From a virus: a stretch of DNA of 20,523 bases. Location of the stretch: IMG/VR virus record IMGVR_UViG_3300034122_002435, positions 1-20,523 of that record, one strand, 5' to 3'. This document shows positions 2,492-11,528 of the stretch, piece by piece (positions within the stretch are counted from its first letter, which is position 1; the number at the start of each line of letters is the position of its first letter). The notes beneath the pieces are model-generated. The model was not told the DNA's origin. It worked only from the letters and a program-made list of their open reading frames with translations, and did no database searches. The translations under genes were made by a program, and so were the position numbers.

Positions 2492-3616
2492 ATGAATCGC
2501 GGCTACTTCGAGGTCAACGGGCGGACCAATACGGGGCTTTTCCTCCGCCGTGGCCGCATCCCACCGCCGCACATTCTCACCAGCACGCCGCACATCGGCA
2601 ACATCATCGGCAACTACAGCATCGGCGGAGTGTCTCCCTCGACACTGACGACCGCATACGTGTATGGCACCAGCGGAACGGTGCGAGCCTTGCGGTTCAT
2701 GCAGGACCGCGACAAGCAACTCCTCACCGAGATCTGGTACGCCACCGGCGCGAACACCGGAACGCCGACGGGAGCCTTGACAATCCAACTCCGGGCCGCG
2801 GATGCCACCGCGCCGACTCTCAAGGCCGGAACGCTCATCACCAGCCAATCGCACACGCCGACACAAAACTCGTGGAACCGAGTGGTGCTCACCACGCCGC
2901 AACAACTGAGCATCAACACGATCTACTACGTGGTCATTGGAGATGCCGCAGGCAACGCCACCAACTACTACCGCGTGTATGACAACACGGGTGGCGTGCT
3001 TGGTGCGTTGGGTGGCGTCGAGTCACGATTCTGGGCACCGATCAACACGACGAACGGCTTTAGCACCAACGGCACGCTCATCAACGGCGGCATGTGCATG
3101 ATCCTCGGCTTTGCCGATGGGTCGTATCGCGGCATGTTGCATGCCGGCGGCGGCACACCAGCGAGCAACTCGCTCAAGCGTGGGTACTACCTGAGCAACT
3201 TCGAGACCGACATTGTGCTCGAAGGCATCAGCGTCGGCACCTCGACCAACTGGAACGGCATCGAGATCTTCGGCGGCGACCAAGCACCGTTCCAAACACC
3301 GTTGTACCGCGAGGTCATGAACGCCGACAATCGCGGCCTGTTGTTGGGATATCTCAATCAACCGTTCCGCATGCGCGTCGGCAACGCCTATCGCGTCGTC
3401 ATGACGTTCAGCGGCAACTCGACGAGCCCCGGACAGATTGGCGTGGCGAACGCCACGACCGCCTTCCCCGCCAACGTCGGTTGGGCGTGGGGGTGTCGCG
3501 CGGATCCAACCATCGCCACCACCAGCAACGCTTGGAGCACCGGCGCAAAGACACTCGGCATCACCAACTACGGCATGCTGCTGATGGTGCGCCGCGTCAT
3601 GGACCCGCGAACATGA
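2492..3616 (+). CDS. Beta-rich fibre- or tail-associated phage protein
   Basis: 374 residues from ATG 2492, with GAGG at 2484-2487 just upstream. The N-terminal 40 residues hold a basic Arg/Gly segment (LFLRRGRIPPPH). Residues about 50-170 resemble a jelly-roll, carbohydrate-binding-like domain found in phage and surface proteins (LRFMQDRDKQLLTEIWYATG, NTIYYVVIGDAAGNATNYYRVYD). Residues 200-374 form a second beta-rich region with many Asn/Gly/Thr (GLLLGYLNQPFRMRVGNAYRVVM). Its stop overlaps the next start (ATGA at 3613-3616). A role in adsorption or tail-tip structure is inferred from neighbours and composition. Confidence 0.75.
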   Translation: MNRGYFEVNGRTNTGLFLRRGRIPPPHILTSTPHIGNIIGNYSIGGVSPSTLTTAYVYGTSGTVRALRFMQDRDKQLLTEIWYATGANTGTPTGALTIQLRAADATAPTLKAGTLITSQSHTPTQNSWNRVVLTTPQQLSINTIYYVVIGDAAGNATNYYRVYDNTGGVLGALGGVESRFWAPINTTNGFSTNGTLINGGMCMILGFADGSYRGMLHAGGGTPASNSLKRGYYLSNFETDIVLEGISVGTSTNWNGIEIFGGDQAPFQTPLYREVMNADNRGLLLGYLNQPFRMRVGNAYRVVMTFSGNSTSPGQIGVANATTAFPANVGWAWGCRADPTIATTSNAWSTGAKTLGITNYGMLLMVRRVMDPRT

Positions 3617-3897
3617 ACAGCCAGCGAGTGCTACAGGCCATCGCCACGTATCGGGTTGCCAACGGCGGCTCGATTCCGTCGCTCATCGTCATCGACACGG
3701 ACAACGACACCATCGCATGTCACACCTTCGCCGATTTGGAGGCCAGCACCGATCCTGAATGGCGGCCAGTCTGGATCAACTACACCGTGCTGGTGGACTA
3801 CTACAAGGACGACATTCCGCTCATTCTCGATTCTGTCAACCGCACCACGGTGCGCGACTATCTGTGGATACTGCTCGAGGCCGAAACTCGGCCATGA
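3613..3897 (+). CDS. Small acidic phage protein, unknown function
   Basis: 94 residues starting at ATG 3613, sharing ATGA with the previous stop, so translation is probably coupled. In-frame sequence upstream is read-through inside the 374-residue gene. The protein is acidic and rich in hydrophobic/aromatic residues (SLIVIDTDNDTIACHTF, WINYTVLVDYYKDDIPLIL, RDYLWILLEAE). It has no membrane segment long enough to call. The family is not recognised; location points to a minor virion or assembly protein. Confidence 0.65.
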   Translation: MNSQRVLQAIATYRVANGGSIPSLIVIDTDNDTIACHTFADLEASTDPEWRPVWINYTVLVDYYKDDIPLILDSVNRTTVRDYLWILLEAETRP

Positions 3898-3901
3898 CGG
3901 G

Positions 3902-3907
3902 TACACT
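3902..3907 (+). promoter_or_regulatory. TACACT -10-like element (GGTACACTGAC)
   Basis: GGGTACACTGAC lies five bases after the upstream stop and 26 bases before ATG 3934. With +1 near 3914 the leader would be about 20 bases and would keep the AAGGAA Shine-Dalgarno at 3921-3926. The same GGTACACTGAC recurs at 13919 and 19641. No good -35 box is visible, so promoter activity is inferred from recurrence and position. Confidence 0.45.
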
Positions 3908-3933
3908 GACACCGAACCCCAAGGAACCGAACC

Positions 3934-4809
3934 ATGTCCGCAGCATTTCTCAACGCCGGTGCAACAGCCTTTGCCGCCGCCAACTGGTCCGACACCACCG
4001 GCTTCGTCGATGACGCCGAGTTGTACATCCAGTCGGGCACCCAGACCGTTACCGGCGACCTGACGCCAAGCCTTGCCAACGGCATCCAGAACCTCGACAT
4101 CTTGTCGGGCTGGTCGGGCAACATCGGCGGGGCCAACGGTTCGCTCGCGGTCGAGACGCGTTCGAGCCTCATCAACCAGGTCACGCAGATTCCCCGCGTC
4201 CGGTACTACGCCTCGGGCGGCACGTTCTACTACACGCCGCAGGGTGCCGGTGCGGCCGCAAACGTCTGCGACTACTACCAGATCGCGGGCTCGGGCAACG
4301 GCTACCTGACCGGCACCGGCACCGTCAAGCGGCTGGAAAGCAACGGCGGTCGTCTGTACGTCGGCACCGCCGTCACCAGCGTGGCGACGTTCCGATGGAT
4401 GTTCTCGGGCGGCACCGTCACCATCGACGGCGTCGTCGGCACGACCAAGGTGCACGCCCTGACGATCAGCGGCGGGCAGCACCTGCTCAAGCGTGGCGTG
4501 CAAGGCAGCACGATGGCCTCGACGGGGTTTGTCGAAGGGCTCAACGTCGCGGGCGGAGCCGTGACCATCGACGCCTACGCCGAGACGATTAGCGACCTGC
4601 GGCTTTACGGCGGGTACGTGACCGTGGTGAACTGCGGCGCCATCGCCGTCGTGTCCGGCTACTCGGGCACGCTCGACTTCTCCAAACTCCAGCGGCCCGT
4701 GACCGTGACGCTGCTGGAAGATTCGCCCGGGCTGACCGTCATCCCCTCGCGTCTGCTGACCATCACGACGCGGAACCCGATTGGCCCCGGTGCCAACGGC
4801 CTGACCTAA
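3934..4809 (+). CDS. Phage structural protein with beta-helix-like repeats
   Basis: 291 residues; ATG 3934 follows AAGGAA at 3921-3926. The sequence is a run of short Gly/Thr/Val-rich strands with turns every 15-25 residues (GNGYLTGTGTVKRLESNGGRLYVG, SGGTVTIDGVVG, VAGGAVTIDAYAETISDLRLYGGYVTVVNCG), the look of a right-handed beta-helix or stacked-sheet fibre. No lyase or depolymerase catalytic residues can be identified. Its stop is immediately followed by the ATG of the Cys-rich gene (TAAATG). A tail spike, fibre or decoration protein is the best reading, inferred from repeat pattern and neighbours. Confidence 0.75.
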   Translation: MSAAFLNAGATAFAAANWSDTTGFVDDAELYIQSGTQTVTGDLTPSLANGIQNLDILSGWSGNIGGANGSLAVETRSSLINQVTQIPRVRYYASGGTFYYTPQGAGAAANVCDYYQIAGSGNGYLTGTGTVKRLESNGGRLYVGTAVTSVATFRWMFSGGTVTIDGVVGTTKVHALTISGGQHLLKRGVQGSTMASTGFVEGLNVAGGAVTIDAYAETISDLRLYGGYVTVVNCGAIAVVSGYSGTLDFSKLQRPVTVTLLEDSPGLTVIPSRLLTITTRNPIGPGANGLT

Positions 4810-7222: not shown

Positions 7223-8131
7223 ATGACCGTTCGCAAAATGACCGACCGTGCCTTTGGCGACTACGCCGCCGACAAAGACGTCAACGCCTCGGCCCTGAGG
7301 GCTGGCCGCAAGTCGATGCTGCACATGAAGGCCGTCATCGACGGCGTGGCCAAGGAGCCGTCGCCCGCGATGCTGCTCGGCTCGGCCTTGCACGCCGCCA
7401 TTCTGGAGCCCGCCCGGTTCGGCGAGATGCTGCGCGTCGCTCCCGACGTTGACCGCCGCACCAAGGCGGGCAAGGAGGAGTACGCCGCGTTTGTGGCGTC
7501 GCTGCCGAAGAACGCCATCGTCCTGACCGCAGACGACTACAACGCCGTCCGCGATGCACAACTTGCCGTCAACGCCACCATGGTGCCAAACCTCATGGGT
7601 GCAGGCGAGTCCGAGGTGTCCGTCTACTGGGGCGAGCAGTGCGGCGACAAGGTGGTCGGATGCAAGGCCCGCATCGACTGGCTTGGTCACCTGGCGGGCC
7701 AGCCCGATCAGGGGCTCATCATCGACATCAAGACGACGCGCGACGCCAGCCCGGGTGCGTTCGCGCGGTCGGCAGCGTCGTACGGCTACCTGCACCAGGC
7801 TGCGTGGTACATGCGGGCCGCGGCTCGCCTCAACGCCACGGGGCAAGGCCCCAAGATCGCCGACTACTTCATGGTCGCGGTCGAGATGGAGCCCCCGTAC
7901 GCCGTCGGCCTGTACCGGCTGTCGAGCGACGACCTGAGGGCCGCGGACCTCGACAACCTTGAGACACTGCAATGCTGGGCCGCCGCGTGCGAGGCCGACC
8001 AGTTCCCGGGCCCGACCGGCAGCACCATCCGCACCCTGAACGTGCCCGAGTGGGTGTTCCGCTCGGCCAATCCGACCGTGAGCAGCGTGCAGGACGACCT
8101 GCTCGACGGCGACATCACCATCCCTTTCTGA
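7223..8131 (+). CDS. RecE/exodeoxyribonuclease VIII-type PD-(D/E)XK nuclease
   Basis: 302 residues; ATG 7223, with GGAGA at about 7211 just upstream. Hallmarks in order: GSALHAAILEPARF (53-66, the GxxxH helix of RecE C-terminal domains), E131 in SEVSVYW, GCKARIDW (K148, R150, D152), IIDIKTT (D168, K170; the D-x-K core) and YLHQAAWYM (Q192, Y196). These match lambda-exonuclease/RecE-like PDDEXK enzymes that digest the 5' strand of duplex DNA to give 3' single-stranded tails. The next gene is a RecT-like annealing protein, the classic partner. Length fits a stand-alone phage RecE catalytic domain. The specific subfamily is not resolved. Confidence 0.88.
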   Translation: MTVRKMTDRAFGDYAADKDVNASALRAGRKSMLHMKAVIDGVAKEPSPAMLLGSALHAAILEPARFGEMLRVAPDVDRRTKAGKEEYAAFVASLPKNAIVLTADDYNAVRDAQLAVNATMVPNLMGAGESEVSVYWGEQCGDKVVGCKARIDWLGHLAGQPDQGLIIDIKTTRDASPGAFARSAASYGYLHQAAWYMRAAARLNATGQGPKIADYFMVAVEMEPPYAVGLYRLSSDDLRAADLDNLETLQCWAAACEADQFPGPTGSTIRTLNVPEWVFRSANPTVSSVQDDLLDGDITIPF

Positions 8132-8141
8132 GGAGAACCCA

Positions 8142-8939
8142 ATGACCAAGAAAACCACCAAGCAGCCGGAGTTGGACGACCTGTCGTTTCTCGCCGACGC
8201 CACGCCGAACCAGCCGGAGCCGGAGGCGACCAAGCCGGAGCCCAAGCCCGAGCCGGTGCCGGAGCCGGTGCCTATGCCCGTCATCAGGCCCGAGCCGCCG
8301 CCGGTGCTCGCCAAGGCCGAGGTGATGCCGCCGCCAACGCCGATCCGGTTCGGCCCTCGGGGCTTCGAGCCCGACACGTTCGAGGCCGTGCAACGCCTGT
8401 CGCGGTTCTACTTGGCGGGCGACGCCCTGCCCAAGTCCACGATGGCCGGGGCCCGCGACGCGACGGCTGTGCTTGCCCGCATCGGCATCATTCTGGAGCG
8501 TGGCAAGGCGCTCGGCCTGCCCGCGGGCACCGCCCTCGAAAGCATCACGATCATCAACGGGCGGGTGTGCCTCTGGGGAGACGCCATGCTCGGCATTGTC
8601 CTGGCACACGCCGACTGCGAAGGCGTCGAGTGCGTGATGCAGGGCACCGGCGACGACCGCTTCGTCGTCTGCACCGCCTACCGCCGCGGCCGCAAGGTGT
8701 CGCCGTCACGGTTTGGCGTGGCCGACGCCAAGCGGGCTGGCCTGTGGGGCAGGTCGGGCCCGTGGTCGTCCTACCCCGACCGCATGCTCCAGGCACGTGC
8801 TCGAGGCTTCGCCCTCCGCGACACGTGGGCGGACGTTCTGACGGGCACCAAGGTTGCCGAGGAGGTGCTCGACTACGACGAGAACCGCAACCACGCCGAG
8901 GGGCTGGCCGAGTTGATGGAGCGGCTTCGGGCAGGATAA
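8142..8939 (+). CDS. RecT-like single-strand annealing protein
   Basis: 265 residues; ATG 8142 follows AGGAGA at 8131-8136, ten bases after the nuclease stop. Residues 1-70 are an acidic then Pro/Glu/Lys-rich, presumably disordered, tail with repeated PEP. The core (72-245) carries the signature of phage RecT-related proteins: GVADAKRAGLWG (192-203), GPWSSYPDRMLQARARGFALRD (206-227) and ADVLTG (230-235). Such proteins bind single-stranded DNA and anneal complementary strands, working with the 5'-3' exonuclease next door. The long Pro-rich N-terminus is unusual and may dock the nuclease or a host single-strand-binding protein. Assignment rests on the motif block, not a search. Confidence 0.8.
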   Translation: MTKKTTKQPELDDLSFLADATPNQPEPEATKPEPKPEPVPEPVPMPVIRPEPPPVLAKAEVMPPPTPIRFGPRGFEPDTFEAVQRLSRFYLAGDALPKSTMAGARDATAVLARIGIILERGKALGLPAGTALESITIINGRVCLWGDAMLGIVLAHADCEGVECVMQGTGDDRFVVCTAYRRGRKVSPSRFGVADAKRAGLWGRSGPWSSYPDRMLQARARGFALRDTWADVLTGTKVAEEVLDYDENRNHAEGLAELMERLRAG

Positions 8940-9190
8940 CGCGCCCATAGGGGCCGGTGGCGCGGGCTACGGCCGCAATAACCGCCCCAGCGACGAACGT
9001 GCGGACCTTCACCGCACGTCACTCCCCCGCGGTGTGCGGGCGTTCGCAACAAACACCTGGGACCGGCGATCGAAAGGCCGCCGGAGCCCATTGGAATGGC
9101 GCCAGAGCGTCCGTCGGCGGCACCGGCCCTCGTGTTGGGGGTCGGCCGCCGGCGGCTCTGGCGGGCATCCAGACGGCAAGGACGAATGAC
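8940..9190 (+). other. 251-base intergenic region with strong inverted repeats
   Basis: No credible gene. An in-frame extension of the next ORF back to 8957 lacks protein-like character. Two pairings stand out. ACGTGCGG 8997-9004 pairs perfectly with CCGCACGT 9012-9019 (7-base loop). CGCCAGAGC 9100-9108 pairs perfectly with GCTCTGGCG 9155-9163, with an inner CGGCGG 9115-9120/CCGCCG 9146-9151. There is no T-tract after either. A structured leader, processing site or small RNA upstream of the 9191 gene is possible. No -10-like element was identified. Confidence 0.4.
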
Positions 9191-9772
9191 ATGAAGACGA
9201 TTCTGGCGACGATCAAGGGCACGACCTCTCTCCTCCAGCACCGCTTCGGCGAGAAGGCCGAAATCGCGGTGCAGGCCAACACCCGCCGCATGAAGGTCGA
9301 GGCGAACACGGCGACGCCGCGTGACGCCGCCGAGCAGGTGTCCTACCAGCGTGACGACGGCACGTTCTACTTCCCCGGTGCGGCGGTTGGCCGCCTGATC
9401 CGCGAGGCCGGTGGCGGCCACAAGATCAAGGGCAGCCGCAAGTCGGCGAAGTACGTGGTGCCCGCGGCGGTGCTGGTCATGGACGACACCGTGACCATCG
9501 CCGACGAGGACGGCAAGCCGGTGGGCGACTTCGAGGTGGACTCGCGTCCGGTCGTGATCCCGGCGACGAAGGGCCGCGTGATGCGGCACCGCCCGCGGTT
9601 CGATCGGTGGACGGCGAAGGTGACGATCCGCGTGAATGACGAGATTTTGGATCCCGATTTCGTGCATCGCCTGCTGGTCGAGGGCGGGCAGCAGATCGGG
9701 CTGGGCGACTTCCGGCCCGAGAAGGGCGGGCCGTTCGGCACGTTCATCGTGACGGAGTGGTCGGAGAAGTAA
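9191..9772 (+). CDS. Unknown early phage protein with RAMP/Cas7-like sequence features
   Basis: 193 residues from ATG 9191; the long upstream extension is rejected because it overlaps structured, non-protein-like DNA. A GCAAGGACGA lies at 9177-9186. Features: a leading strand ATIKGTTSLLQHRF, a FYFPGAAVGRLIREAG block (59-74) like the IPGSSLKGALR helix of Cas7/RAMP proteins, a strand-rich middle (YVVPAAVLVMDD, VVIPATKGRVMRHRPRFDRW), and a C-terminal glycine-rich loop GGQQIGLGDFRPEKGGPFGTFIV (165-187) like RAMP G-loops. No Cas genes or CRISPR are nearby, so this is not a CRISPR system. Placement after RecE/RecT suggests nucleic-acid binding in recombination or replication. Fold assignment is inference; the gene itself is firm. 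Confidence 0.75.
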   Translation: MKTILATIKGTTSLLQHRFGEKAEIAVQANTRRMKVEANTATPRDAAEQVSYQRDDGTFYFPGAAVGRLIREAGGGHKIKGSRKSAKYVVPAAVLVMDDTVTIADEDGKPVGDFEVDSRPVVIPATKGRVMRHRPRFDRWTAKVTIRVNDEILDPDFVHRLLVEGGQQIGLGDFRPEKGGPFGTFIVTEWSEK

Positions 9773-9856
9773 ACAACGAGGCCGGGAGCGGCGGGGCGGG
9801 GCAGGGCTCGGCAAGGCGAGGCCAGGCGGGGCGGGGCAAGGCAAGGCAGGGCAAGG

Positions 9857-9891
9857 AACATCCGCAACGGCGAAAGCCGGGGCGGGTGGTT
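9857..9891 (+). other. Hairpin A of the array (GAAA loop)
   Basis: AAC 9857-9859 pairs with GTT 9889-9891, then a bulged G at 9888, ATCCGC 9860-9865 with GCGGGT 9882-9887 (one T-G pair), an internal loop, and CGGC 9868-9871 with GCCG 9876-9879 capped by GAAA. Confidence 0.75.
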
Positions 9892-9981
9892 TGCGGCGGC
9901 GCGGGGCCGGGTGTGGTCTGGCTTGGCAGGGCTGGGCTTGGCGGGGCGTGGCAAGGCGAGGCGGGGCAAGGCACGGCAAGG

Positions 9982-10016
9982 AACATCCACCGCAGCGGAA
10001 GCGGCGGTGGGTGGTT
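9982..10016 (+). other. Hairpin B of the array (GGAA loop)
   Basis: AAC 9982-9984/GTT 10014-10016, bulged G 10013, ATCCACCGC 9985-9993/GCGGTGGGT 10004-10012 (nine pairs, one T-G), an A/G mismatch, GC/GC, and a GGAA tetraloop at 9997-10000. Confidence 0.78.
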
Positions 10017-10117
10017 TGGACGCGCGGCCAGGCGGGGCTGGGCAAGGCCGGGCGGGGCGGGGCACGGCATGGCAAGGCACGGCGAGGTCAGGCGGGGCGT
10101 GGCAGGGCAAGGCATGG

Positions 10118-10152
10118 AACATCCGCACGAGAGGAATCGCGTGCGGGTGGTT
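10118..10152 (+). other. Hairpin C of the array (GGAA loop)
   Basis: AAC 10118-10120/GTT 10150-10152, bulged G 10149, ATCCGCACG 10121-10129/CGTGCGGGT 10140-10148. The stem sequence differs from B at several pairs, each compensated on the other side. Then an A/G mismatch, GA/TC, and a GGAA loop at 10133-10136. Confidence 0.78.
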
Positions 10153-10233
10153 TGGACGCTGGGCTCGGCTCGGCGTGGCCTGGGACGGCCGGGCAGGGCT
10201 AGGTGCGGCACGGCGCGGCGCGGCAAGGCACGG

Positions 10234-10268
10234 AACATCCACCGCGGCGACAGCGGCGGTGGGTGGTT
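10234..10268 (+). other. Hairpin D of the array (GACA loop)
   Basis: AAC 10234-10236/GTT 10266-10268, bulged G 10265, ATCCACCGC 10237-10245/GCGGTGGGT 10256-10264, inner GC/GC, loop GACA 10249-10252 (the only copy not strictly GNRA). Confidence 0.76.
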
Positions 10269-10355
10269 TGTTGGCGAGGCGGAGCCGGGCCCGGTCTGGC
10301 TTGGCCGGGCTGGGCTTGGCGTGGAAAGGCTTGGCAATGCGAGGCAAGGCACGGA

Positions 10356-10385
10356 CGATCCGTCAGGCGAAAGCACGGCGGGTCG
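10356..10385 (+). other. Hairpin E of the array (GAAA loop, divergent flanks)
   Basis: CGATCCGTC 10356-10364 pairs with GGCGGGTCG 10377-10385 (nine pairs including T-G). The AAC/GTT outer pairs of the other copies are replaced by a CG/CG pairing. Inner GC/GC caps a GAAA loop at 10369-10372. It ends 14 bases before ATG 10400. Confidence 0.68.
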
Positions 10386-10399
10386 GTTGGGAGGTTCAC

Positions 10400-10594
10400 A
10401 TGGACGACGACTTGGAAGCCGTCGCGGTCAAGTTGGCCGCGACCAAGGAACGCGAGTACCAGCACGGCTGGCGGGCGTACGTCAACGGCGCCAAGAGGCC
10501 CGCGACGCATTGGGCGGCCGTCGGCTGGGACGAGGCCTGGCACGCGGACCAAGCGTGCTGGCGGCCGATTGAGTGGTCGCGGAATCGTTGGTGA
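10400..10594 (+). CDS. Small Trp-rich protein, weakly RMF-like
   Basis: 64 residues. ATG 10400 is set by GGGAGG at 10389-10394; the frame stays open upstream through the repeat array but that is not coding. The sequence has a short helix (MDDDLEAVAVKLAATKE) and a Trp/His-rich part (YQHGWRAYVNG, HWAAVGWDEAWHADQACWRPIEW). The GW-x-AY-x-x-G pattern followed by W-x-x-AW recalls ribosome-modulation-factor-like small phage proteins, but lengths and Cys positions do not settle it. It is directly downstream of hairpin E, so its ribosome-binding site could be affected by that structure. Confidence 0.6.
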   Translation: MDDDLEAVAVKLAATKEREYQHGWRAYVNGAKRPATHWAAVGWDEAWHADQACWRPIEWSRNRW

Positions 10595-10757: not shown

Positions 10758-11528
10758 ATGTCCAACCTTGACATGACCGACGGAATCTACCGTCGCATCT
10801 ACTCGGGTTTCATCAGTCACCCGAAGATCAACGCTCTGTCATGGATGGCCGAGGCATGGTTCTGGCGGCTCGTCGTGCTGGCGGACGACTACGGCAACCA
10901 TCCGGCAAACTGGCGACTGTTGGCCGCCATTGCAAGCCCTGTGCGTGACATCTCCGCGGCTGAGGCCAAGGCCTTGACGGAGGAGTGCATCGCCCAATCG
11001 CTGGTCACCCTGTACGACCACGAGGGGCAGCCGTACCTGAACATCTCGGGCTTTACCAAGCGGCAGCCCGCCAACAAGAACGGGCGGCGGATTCAACGCT
11101 TCCCGATGAACGGCCCCGTGCCCACTGGGGAATCCGGGGGAATCCGGGTGAATCCGGGTGAATCCAAGGGAATCCGAGTGAATCCGGGTGAATCCGGGGG
11201 AATCCGGGGGAATCCAGTCCCTCCTATACCTACTCCTATTCCGATTCCAAATCCGACTCCTACTCCTACCTCGAGTCCAAGCGATCCGACGCCAACCGAT
11301 GGCATCGGGCCGCGACCGATGACCATGGACGAGCGGCAGCAGGTCAGGCAGGGATTGATTCGCATTGGAGTCGATTCAGGGGCAGCACAGCAGGTAGCCC
11401 TGCACCCGCTGCTCACCCTTGCCATGGTCACGAGCAACATGAAGGCCGTGAAGAAGTCCAAGGGCGTCAAGTCGCAAGCCGCCGTGCTGCTGACCAGGCT
11501 GCGCCGTGAACTGGAGATTGCGGAATGA
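10758..11528 (+). CDS. Replication-initiator-like protein with internal iterons
   Basis: 256 residues; ATG 10758 follows GGAGAG (10747-10752). Met at 10773 (MTDGIYRR) is an alternative. Residues 8-105 look like the N-terminal winged-helix domain of phage replication/replisome-organiser proteins (GFISHPKINALSWMAEAWFWRLVVLADDYGN, then a short strand-rich end YLNISGFTKRQ). Residues about 124-153 are three copies of GESGGIRVNP encoded by 10-bp DNA repeats. Residues 154-181 are a Pro/Thr/Ser hinge, and 186-256 a helical C-terminal domain. This layout (DNA-binding head, origin inside the gene, partner-binding tail) resembles lambda O. It overlaps the next gene by ATGA. Function is inferred from architecture. 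Confidence 0.7.
   Translation: MSNLDMTDGIYRRIYSGFISHPKINALSWMAEAWFWRLVVLADDYGNHPANWRLLAAIASPVRDISAAEAKALTEECIAQSLVTLYDHEGQPYLNISGFTKRQPANKNGRRIQRFPMNGPVPTGESGGIRVNPGESKGIRVNPGESGGIRGNPVPPIPTPIPIPNPTPTPTSSPSDPTPTDGIGPRPMTMDERQQVRQGLIRIGVDSGAAQQVALHPLLTLAMVTSNMKAVKKSKGVKSQAAVLLTRLRRELEIAE
11127..11215 (+). repeat. Nine 10-bp iterons (GGKGAATCCG), candidate phage origin
   Basis: AATCC recurs exactly every 10 bases at 11131, 11141, 11151, 11161, 11171, 11181, 11191, 11201 and 11211, mostly as GGGGAATCCG or GGTGAATCCG. The spacing places every copy on one face of the helix. A lower-GC, pyrimidine-rich stretch (about 11216-11280, CCTACTCC/ATTCC hexamer-like) follows immediately, as an unwinding element would. 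The tract lies inside the initiator-like gene. Confidence 0.75.

Follow-up and report, generated by a model that had tools for sequence, protein, structure and literature searches.

A probable VIPR cassette with five predicted guide RNAs in a phage fragment from IMG/VR

The window, a phage fragment of 20,523 nt from IMG/VR, carries at 9170..10396 on the + strand what we consider, at a probability of about 0.94, to be a VIPR cassette, consisting of a Vipr gene and an array of five vrRNAs with the published mode of action. The first description of VIPR (Viral Interference Programmable Repeat), a preprint of April 2026 (bioRxiv 2026.04.26.720920, PMC13142463), presents it as an RNA-guided DNA-binding system with which phages act on competing phages and mobile elements; few VIPR systems have been tested so far. 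The vrRNAs of VIPR carry 9-16 YNNGG (GGY/NN) repeats and a structured 3' tail, and their partner is Vipr, a RAMP protein with a single RRM; the Vipr-vrRNA complex binds double-stranded DNA through the NN pairs, with one base skipped, is independent of a PAM, and acts as a repressor of genes in rival phages and satellites (PMC13142463).

What we observed in this window is a protein of the Vipr family and fold, an array that follows the repeat grammar and has structured tails, linkage of gene and array, and their gain or loss as a unit. A first-pass annotation, made from the letters of the sequence, had found the array and knew of no described element with such a build, which is that of the VIPR vrRNAs (PMC13142463). 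The kind of element is therefore already described, and what is new here is the target prediction for guide 4.

Results

The gene at 9191..9772 (+ strand), separated by 7 bases from the first tract, encodes a protein of 193 aa, which belongs to phrog_4652 (E=1.3e-18) and which the PHROG, profile and AF2 model results together identify as an unannotated RAMP protein of the Cas7/Csm3 fold. With a profile of only two sequences, one solved structure was matched, 36pp, the 'SUSP1 Vipr protein' (E=1.4e-4), and with a family profile of 47 sequences the same structure was matched over its full length at E=2.2e-15, as the only convincing match in the PDB. The AF2 model (pLDDT 86.5, pTM 0.81) retrieved Csm3 and type VII Cas7 chains as its top Foldseek matches (E 7.6e-7), and comparison with Csm3/Cas7 by VIA gave Z 11.8 over ~160 residues at 12-15% identity. 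Conserved blocks in the family include GDFRPEK and TKGR.MRHRPRF, and searches of Pfam and NCBIfam returned nothing more than chance matches below threshold. Judged from profile and model, the product is a Vipr protein with a predicted RAMP fold, though its similarity to SUSP1 Vipr is remote in sequence.

The array at 9780-10389 has five modules, each a tract of period 5 followed by a hairpin, and the first-pass annotation had both its coordinates and its build right. The tracts of modules 1 to 5 have 15, 15, 18, 14 and 16 units, and GGY with two free bases is found in 73 of the 78 units (68 GGC, 5 GGT). The five irregular units (GGA twice, GGG, AGC and TGC) are distributed as three in vrRNA5 and one each in vrRNA1 and vrRNA4. 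The earlier description of a C at every fifth base over 12-17 units was correct as to the period; the count is 14-18, however, and the fixed letter is Y and not strictly C. Self-match at lag 5 is 0.55 in the array against 0.27 in the whole window, and the tract scores were 14, 15, 18, 13 and 10, compared with a best score of 6 among 2000 first-order Markov reshuffles of the array region.

All five predicted guide tracts are on the + strand. vrRNA1 (9780..9854) has 15 units with the free pairs CG GC GG GG AG TC AA GA CA GG GG AA AA AG AA; vrRNA2 (9905..9979) has 15 units, CG GT CT TT AG TG TT GG GT AA GA GG AA AC AA; vrRNA3 (10026..10115) has 18 units, CA GG TG AA CG GG GG AC AT AA AC GA CA GG GT AG AA AT; vrRNA4 (10162..10231) has 14 units, TC TC GT CT AC CG AG TA GC AC GC GC AA AC; and vrRNA5 (10273..10352) has 16 units, including its three irregular ones. 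No Rfam family was found in the whole window at E<=1, and this includes hammerhead ribozymes between the guides. No CRISPR-type array of identical repeats and unique spacers is present; the repeats are pentamers arranged in tracts, and the tails vary. When phage sequences were searched with the array by BLASTN, all matches were weak (E>=0.2) and most were to Pseudomonas phages, and the one that was examined, vB_Pae_U8, has a GGY tract of its own.

The tail hairpins are also on the + strand and, as had been claimed, each follows the last C at a distance of exactly five bases. The tails lie at 9855..9893 (vrRNA1, GAAA loop), 9980..10018 (vrRNA2, GGAA), 10116..10154 (vrRNA3, GGAA), 10232..10270 (vrRNA4, GACA) and 10353..10389 (vrRNA5, GAAA, the most diverged copy), and their starts reproduce the spacings of 125, 136, 116 and 121 reported earlier. 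Four of the five loops are GNRA as proposed, the exception being the GACA loop of the fourth copy, and the AAC/GTT base pairing of the first-pass annotation falls outside the MFE helix, which starts at the C (C-G, A-U, U-G, C-G, C-G). All five hairpins fold far better than shuffled sequences (z -3.8 to -5.4). The covariation that had been noticed by eye was borne out, with two-sided compensatory change in 5 of 12 pairs across the five hairpins and one homologue, and with a score of 0.267 (mean of shuffles 0.111) that was reached in 0 of 500 shuffles, while slid controls scored <=0.09. The proposal that RNA of the + strand is the functional form is supported as likely.

Linkage between gene and tracts was found from both directions. 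In 80 viral Vipr loci fetched by protein alone, some of which are near-identical copies and so do not represent 80 independent events, GGY/NN tracts were present within 2.5 kb on the gene's own strand in 77, and none were present farther away on that strand. Conversely, a scan of viral contigs for eight GGCNN units gave at least 120 loci, so that homologous arrays, whose absence would have spoken against the first-pass annotation, do exist, and a Vipr homologue was detectable in 81 of the 120 listed loci, which were chosen by tract pattern alone. The array is upstream of vipr, downstream of it or on both sides among relatives. In SUSP1, used as the positive control, tracts flank the CDS pair 28031-29061 on both sides, and in an independent phage (L144), with a Vipr 62% identical to that of the window, the order is vipr, tract, a hairpin of the same family, and tract.

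Neighbour clustering gave no accessory gene common to all loci, and the top neighbour clusters were rejected as accessory genes, being antisense translations of the tracts and thus an artefact. In six loci a helix-turn-helix-like gene ends no more than ~25 bases from vipr (for example L170 3648-4217) and is a candidate accessory gene.

The limits of the cassette were given by blastn breakpoints against two relatives (L011 and L012), which are 92-98% identical to the window on both sides, to the left as far as 9169 and to the right from 10397 onwards, and have ~10 bp in place of window 9170-10396 (~1.2 kb). Because both relatives lack the gene and the array as one block, the two have been gained or lost together, and this empty site shows VIPR moving as a cassette. 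No accessory vap gene was recognisable inside 9170-10396, and the next gene, a short ORF at 10400, is present also in L011, which is without VIPR. The cassette is preceded by genes for an exonuclease VIII-like protein (7223-8131) and a RecT-like protein (8142-8939), and the short ORF beyond the array is followed by replication-initiation, Holliday-resolvase-like, terminase and portal genes. Ten window proteins were scanned and gave phage genes only.

Targets were searched for with the published decoding rule, in which NN is read and one base is skipped. Within all fetched loci (~2 Mb), skips of 0-4 gave nothing above shuffles and no full-length natural target was found for any guide; matches at a skip of 3 were rejected, as they were the arrays themselves. 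When skip rules were compared for 480 guides within the same loci, none was prominent and skips 0-2 gave no signal over shuffles, which is expected if the targets lie elsewhere. IMG/VR was then scanned with exact 9-unit cores of guides 2, 3, 4 and 5. Guides 3 and 5 had zero matches, and the single viral match of guide 2 (in L220) was rejected as an AT-rich chance match (23/30).

Guide 4 had 13 matches in IMG/VR. In 12 of them the opposite strand encodes, in codon register, AVAYLRVST, a sequence that we take to be the N-terminal catalytic motif of the serine recombinase family. These 12 come from at least two dissimilar proteins (the L240 type and L246), and the reverse complement of the guide decodes in codon register as V-[FL]-A-A-V-A-Y-L-R-V-[SR]-T-[DE]-[DE]. 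It fits AVAYLRVST[DE][DE] at 11 of 11 positions, the highest fit being 6 positions both in a set of ~430 other guides and in 20,000 random ones, for a motif that was picked post hoc, when the guide-4 matches were known. As the 12 recombinase matches agree at 20-21 of 28 guide bases, they are homologues of a target class rather than the actual target. Searches of 246 Planctomycetota genomes yielded no full-length (28-base) target, and the 12-unit pattern searched in 195 Verrucomicrobiota genomes gave no full target and one match with 3 mismatches, which does not read as the motif. In 24 resolvase loci of Verrucomicrobiota, the best DNA match of guide 4 fell at the motif in one locus only (L259), and the evidence is therefore at the level of codons. 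The decoded peptides, padded with X, had no match in Pfam or PHROGs, that of guide 4 included, so that these searches do not discriminate between guides.

We consider that guide 4 is probably, though by no means securely, aimed at a serine recombinase (integrase or resolvase) gene, in which case its site would be the codons of the catalytic motif. The fit could also be a coincidence, with another gene as the real target, and to this we give an appreciable probability, somewhat under even. The late choice of the motif, the lack of a full 28-base match, and a forward reading of the guide as S-S-V-L-T-R-[RS]-Y-A-T-A-A, which is also open, speak for coincidence, whereas fits as complete as this one were not approached by random guides, and in the published natural VIPR targets the base that is skipped is the wobble base (PMC13142463), as it is for guide 4. 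A broader and more tentative idea, which we hold as somewhat doubtful, is that VIPR includes guides, guide 4 being one, that target the codons of an invariant catalytic motif of a protein family (YLRVST) and thus act as family-wide anti-integration guides instead of guides against one phage. If this is true, a wobble-skipping guide could silence integrase or resolvase genes in a wide range of rival elements that are unrelated to one another.

Discussion

By analogy with the published system (PMC13142463), the transcript of the + strand would yield guides of 14-18 GGY/NN repeats closed by a hairpin tail, each ~110-130 nt long. Vipr subunits would form an RNP with them, aligning along the repeats and keeping each GGY off the target, so that each NN pair could read two bases of double-stranded DNA and then skip one. 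The bound complex would be expected to block transcription of genes of competing phages or mobile elements, and one purpose could be to stop integration or resolution by such elements. The information of the tracts sits in their NN pairs, and the hairpins serve as 3' tails to the guides rather than being the centre of the element.

It could be argued that the VIPR array is genuine yet decaying or inactive in this phage, as vrRNA5 combines its three irregular units with a diverged tail and single irregular units occur in vrRNA1 and in vrRNA4. However, the vipr ORF is intact and has a confident model, and four of the array's tails score 56-62 bits with the tail model; we regard decay as improbable, at something like one chance in ten.

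A reading close to that of the first-pass annotation is a repeated structural RNA (a scaffold, a protein sponge or a replication structure), with functional hairpins and with the pentamers as spacers. The hairpins do covary and are very stable, and the array is near exonuclease, RecT and replication genes. Nevertheless, the tails between the tracts are wholly different from phage to phage while the GGY/NN tracts are kept, and since the tails vary so completely, the tract grammar and the protein, and not the hairpin, are the conserved part. The covariance search that had been suggested did recover L144, but strong matches to the tail model are confined to the window phage and L144. With the adjoining gene being a RAMP, we think this very unlikely: the tracts are better taken as guides whose partner is that gene than as the scaffold or sponge, replication structure or mobile repeat that had been offered. 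A low-complexity coding region, or slippage of a simple sequence, for which long ORFs crossing the array region on both strands and short-period repeats called there by TRF could be cited, has next to no probability, because the module spacing breaks any reading frame (as the first-pass annotation had noted in treating the element as noncoding, and we verified), the phase is five and not three, independent relatives preserve the pentamer phase and not a peptide, and linkage to one gene family in nearly all Vipr loci would not be expected from slippage.

Taken as a VIPR cassette, the locus is closest to the type II VIPR of the Escherichia phage SUSP1 and of a Pseudomonas fulva prophage, with which it shares being phage-borne, a single-RRM RAMP protein of ~190-200 aa, and a guide array of GGY/NN repeats on the same strand with a structured 3' tail. 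It differs from them in a Vipr that is remote in sequence, in the lack of a recognisable vap gene in the cassette, in its tail hairpin, in having five guides downstream and zero upstream, and in a strong GGC bias. The tracts have up to 18 units compared with the published 9-16, so that vrRNA3 is slightly above the range. VIPR comprises seven types and six vaps, and a vap is typical but not universal (PMC13142463); from these numbers, it is likely that one VIPR type is without a vap. The locus would be a compact form, in which a GC-rich phage carries one gene and five guides without an evident accessory gene.

With the Cas7-group subunits of type III and VII systems (Csm3, Cas7), the window Vipr shares the fold, as given by the Z of 11.8. 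Polymerisation of a RAMP on guide RNA is known for Csm3 and could apply to the window Vipr. In contrast to type III/VII CRISPR-Cas, the window has no CRISPR repeats or spacers and, among the window proteins scanned, no other cas genes, and the guide code is gapped. Tas proteins have an RNA-binding domain different from that of Vipr, and we know of no TIGR arrays made of GGY/NN pentamers. TIGR-Tas (PMC12045711) is similar in being a phage-linked, RNA-guided DNA-targeting system with tandem guide arrays.

As phrog_4652, a PHROG without known function, is tied here to VIPR, VIPR loci exist without annotation in several named phages. GGY/NN tracts adjoin a gene annotated 'hypothetical protein' that belongs to phrog_4652 in LESphi2, UmaThurman and Ecliptus, and one such tract is present in vB_Pae_U8; the tract sites in named phages are at L282 2094-2388, L283 3093-3403, L284 3105-3296 and L018 4002-4056. 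In the cyanophage Cy-LDV1 (L019 2209-3085), four GGY tracts were seen near Bet and exonuclease genes.

As to the origin of the phage, a portal-based host search in 294 Planctomycetota genomes gave remote matches only, and the named phages nearest by terminase (46%) infect Actinomycetota.

Some other features of the window were also observed. The stretch 8940-9190, between recT and vipr, is GC-rich and noncoding with nested hairpins (z -2.5), and is a candidate structured RNA or leader; it is without an Rfam match, and is kept at 92% identity in L011, where vipr and the array are missing. In the VIPR-less relatives, another gene (start MTEKSPLTFLLSAGAAPQF; L011 ~3080-3957) is located between recT and this shared noncoding stretch, and this suggests a hotspot for accessory genes. 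Within the replication-initiation-like ORF, about nine copies of a 10-bp repeat, GGGGAATCCG, were found at 11127-11215, and collagen-like Gly-Pro-Thr-Gly-Ala-Thr repeats are encoded at 1583-1783, within the ORF at 731-2056.
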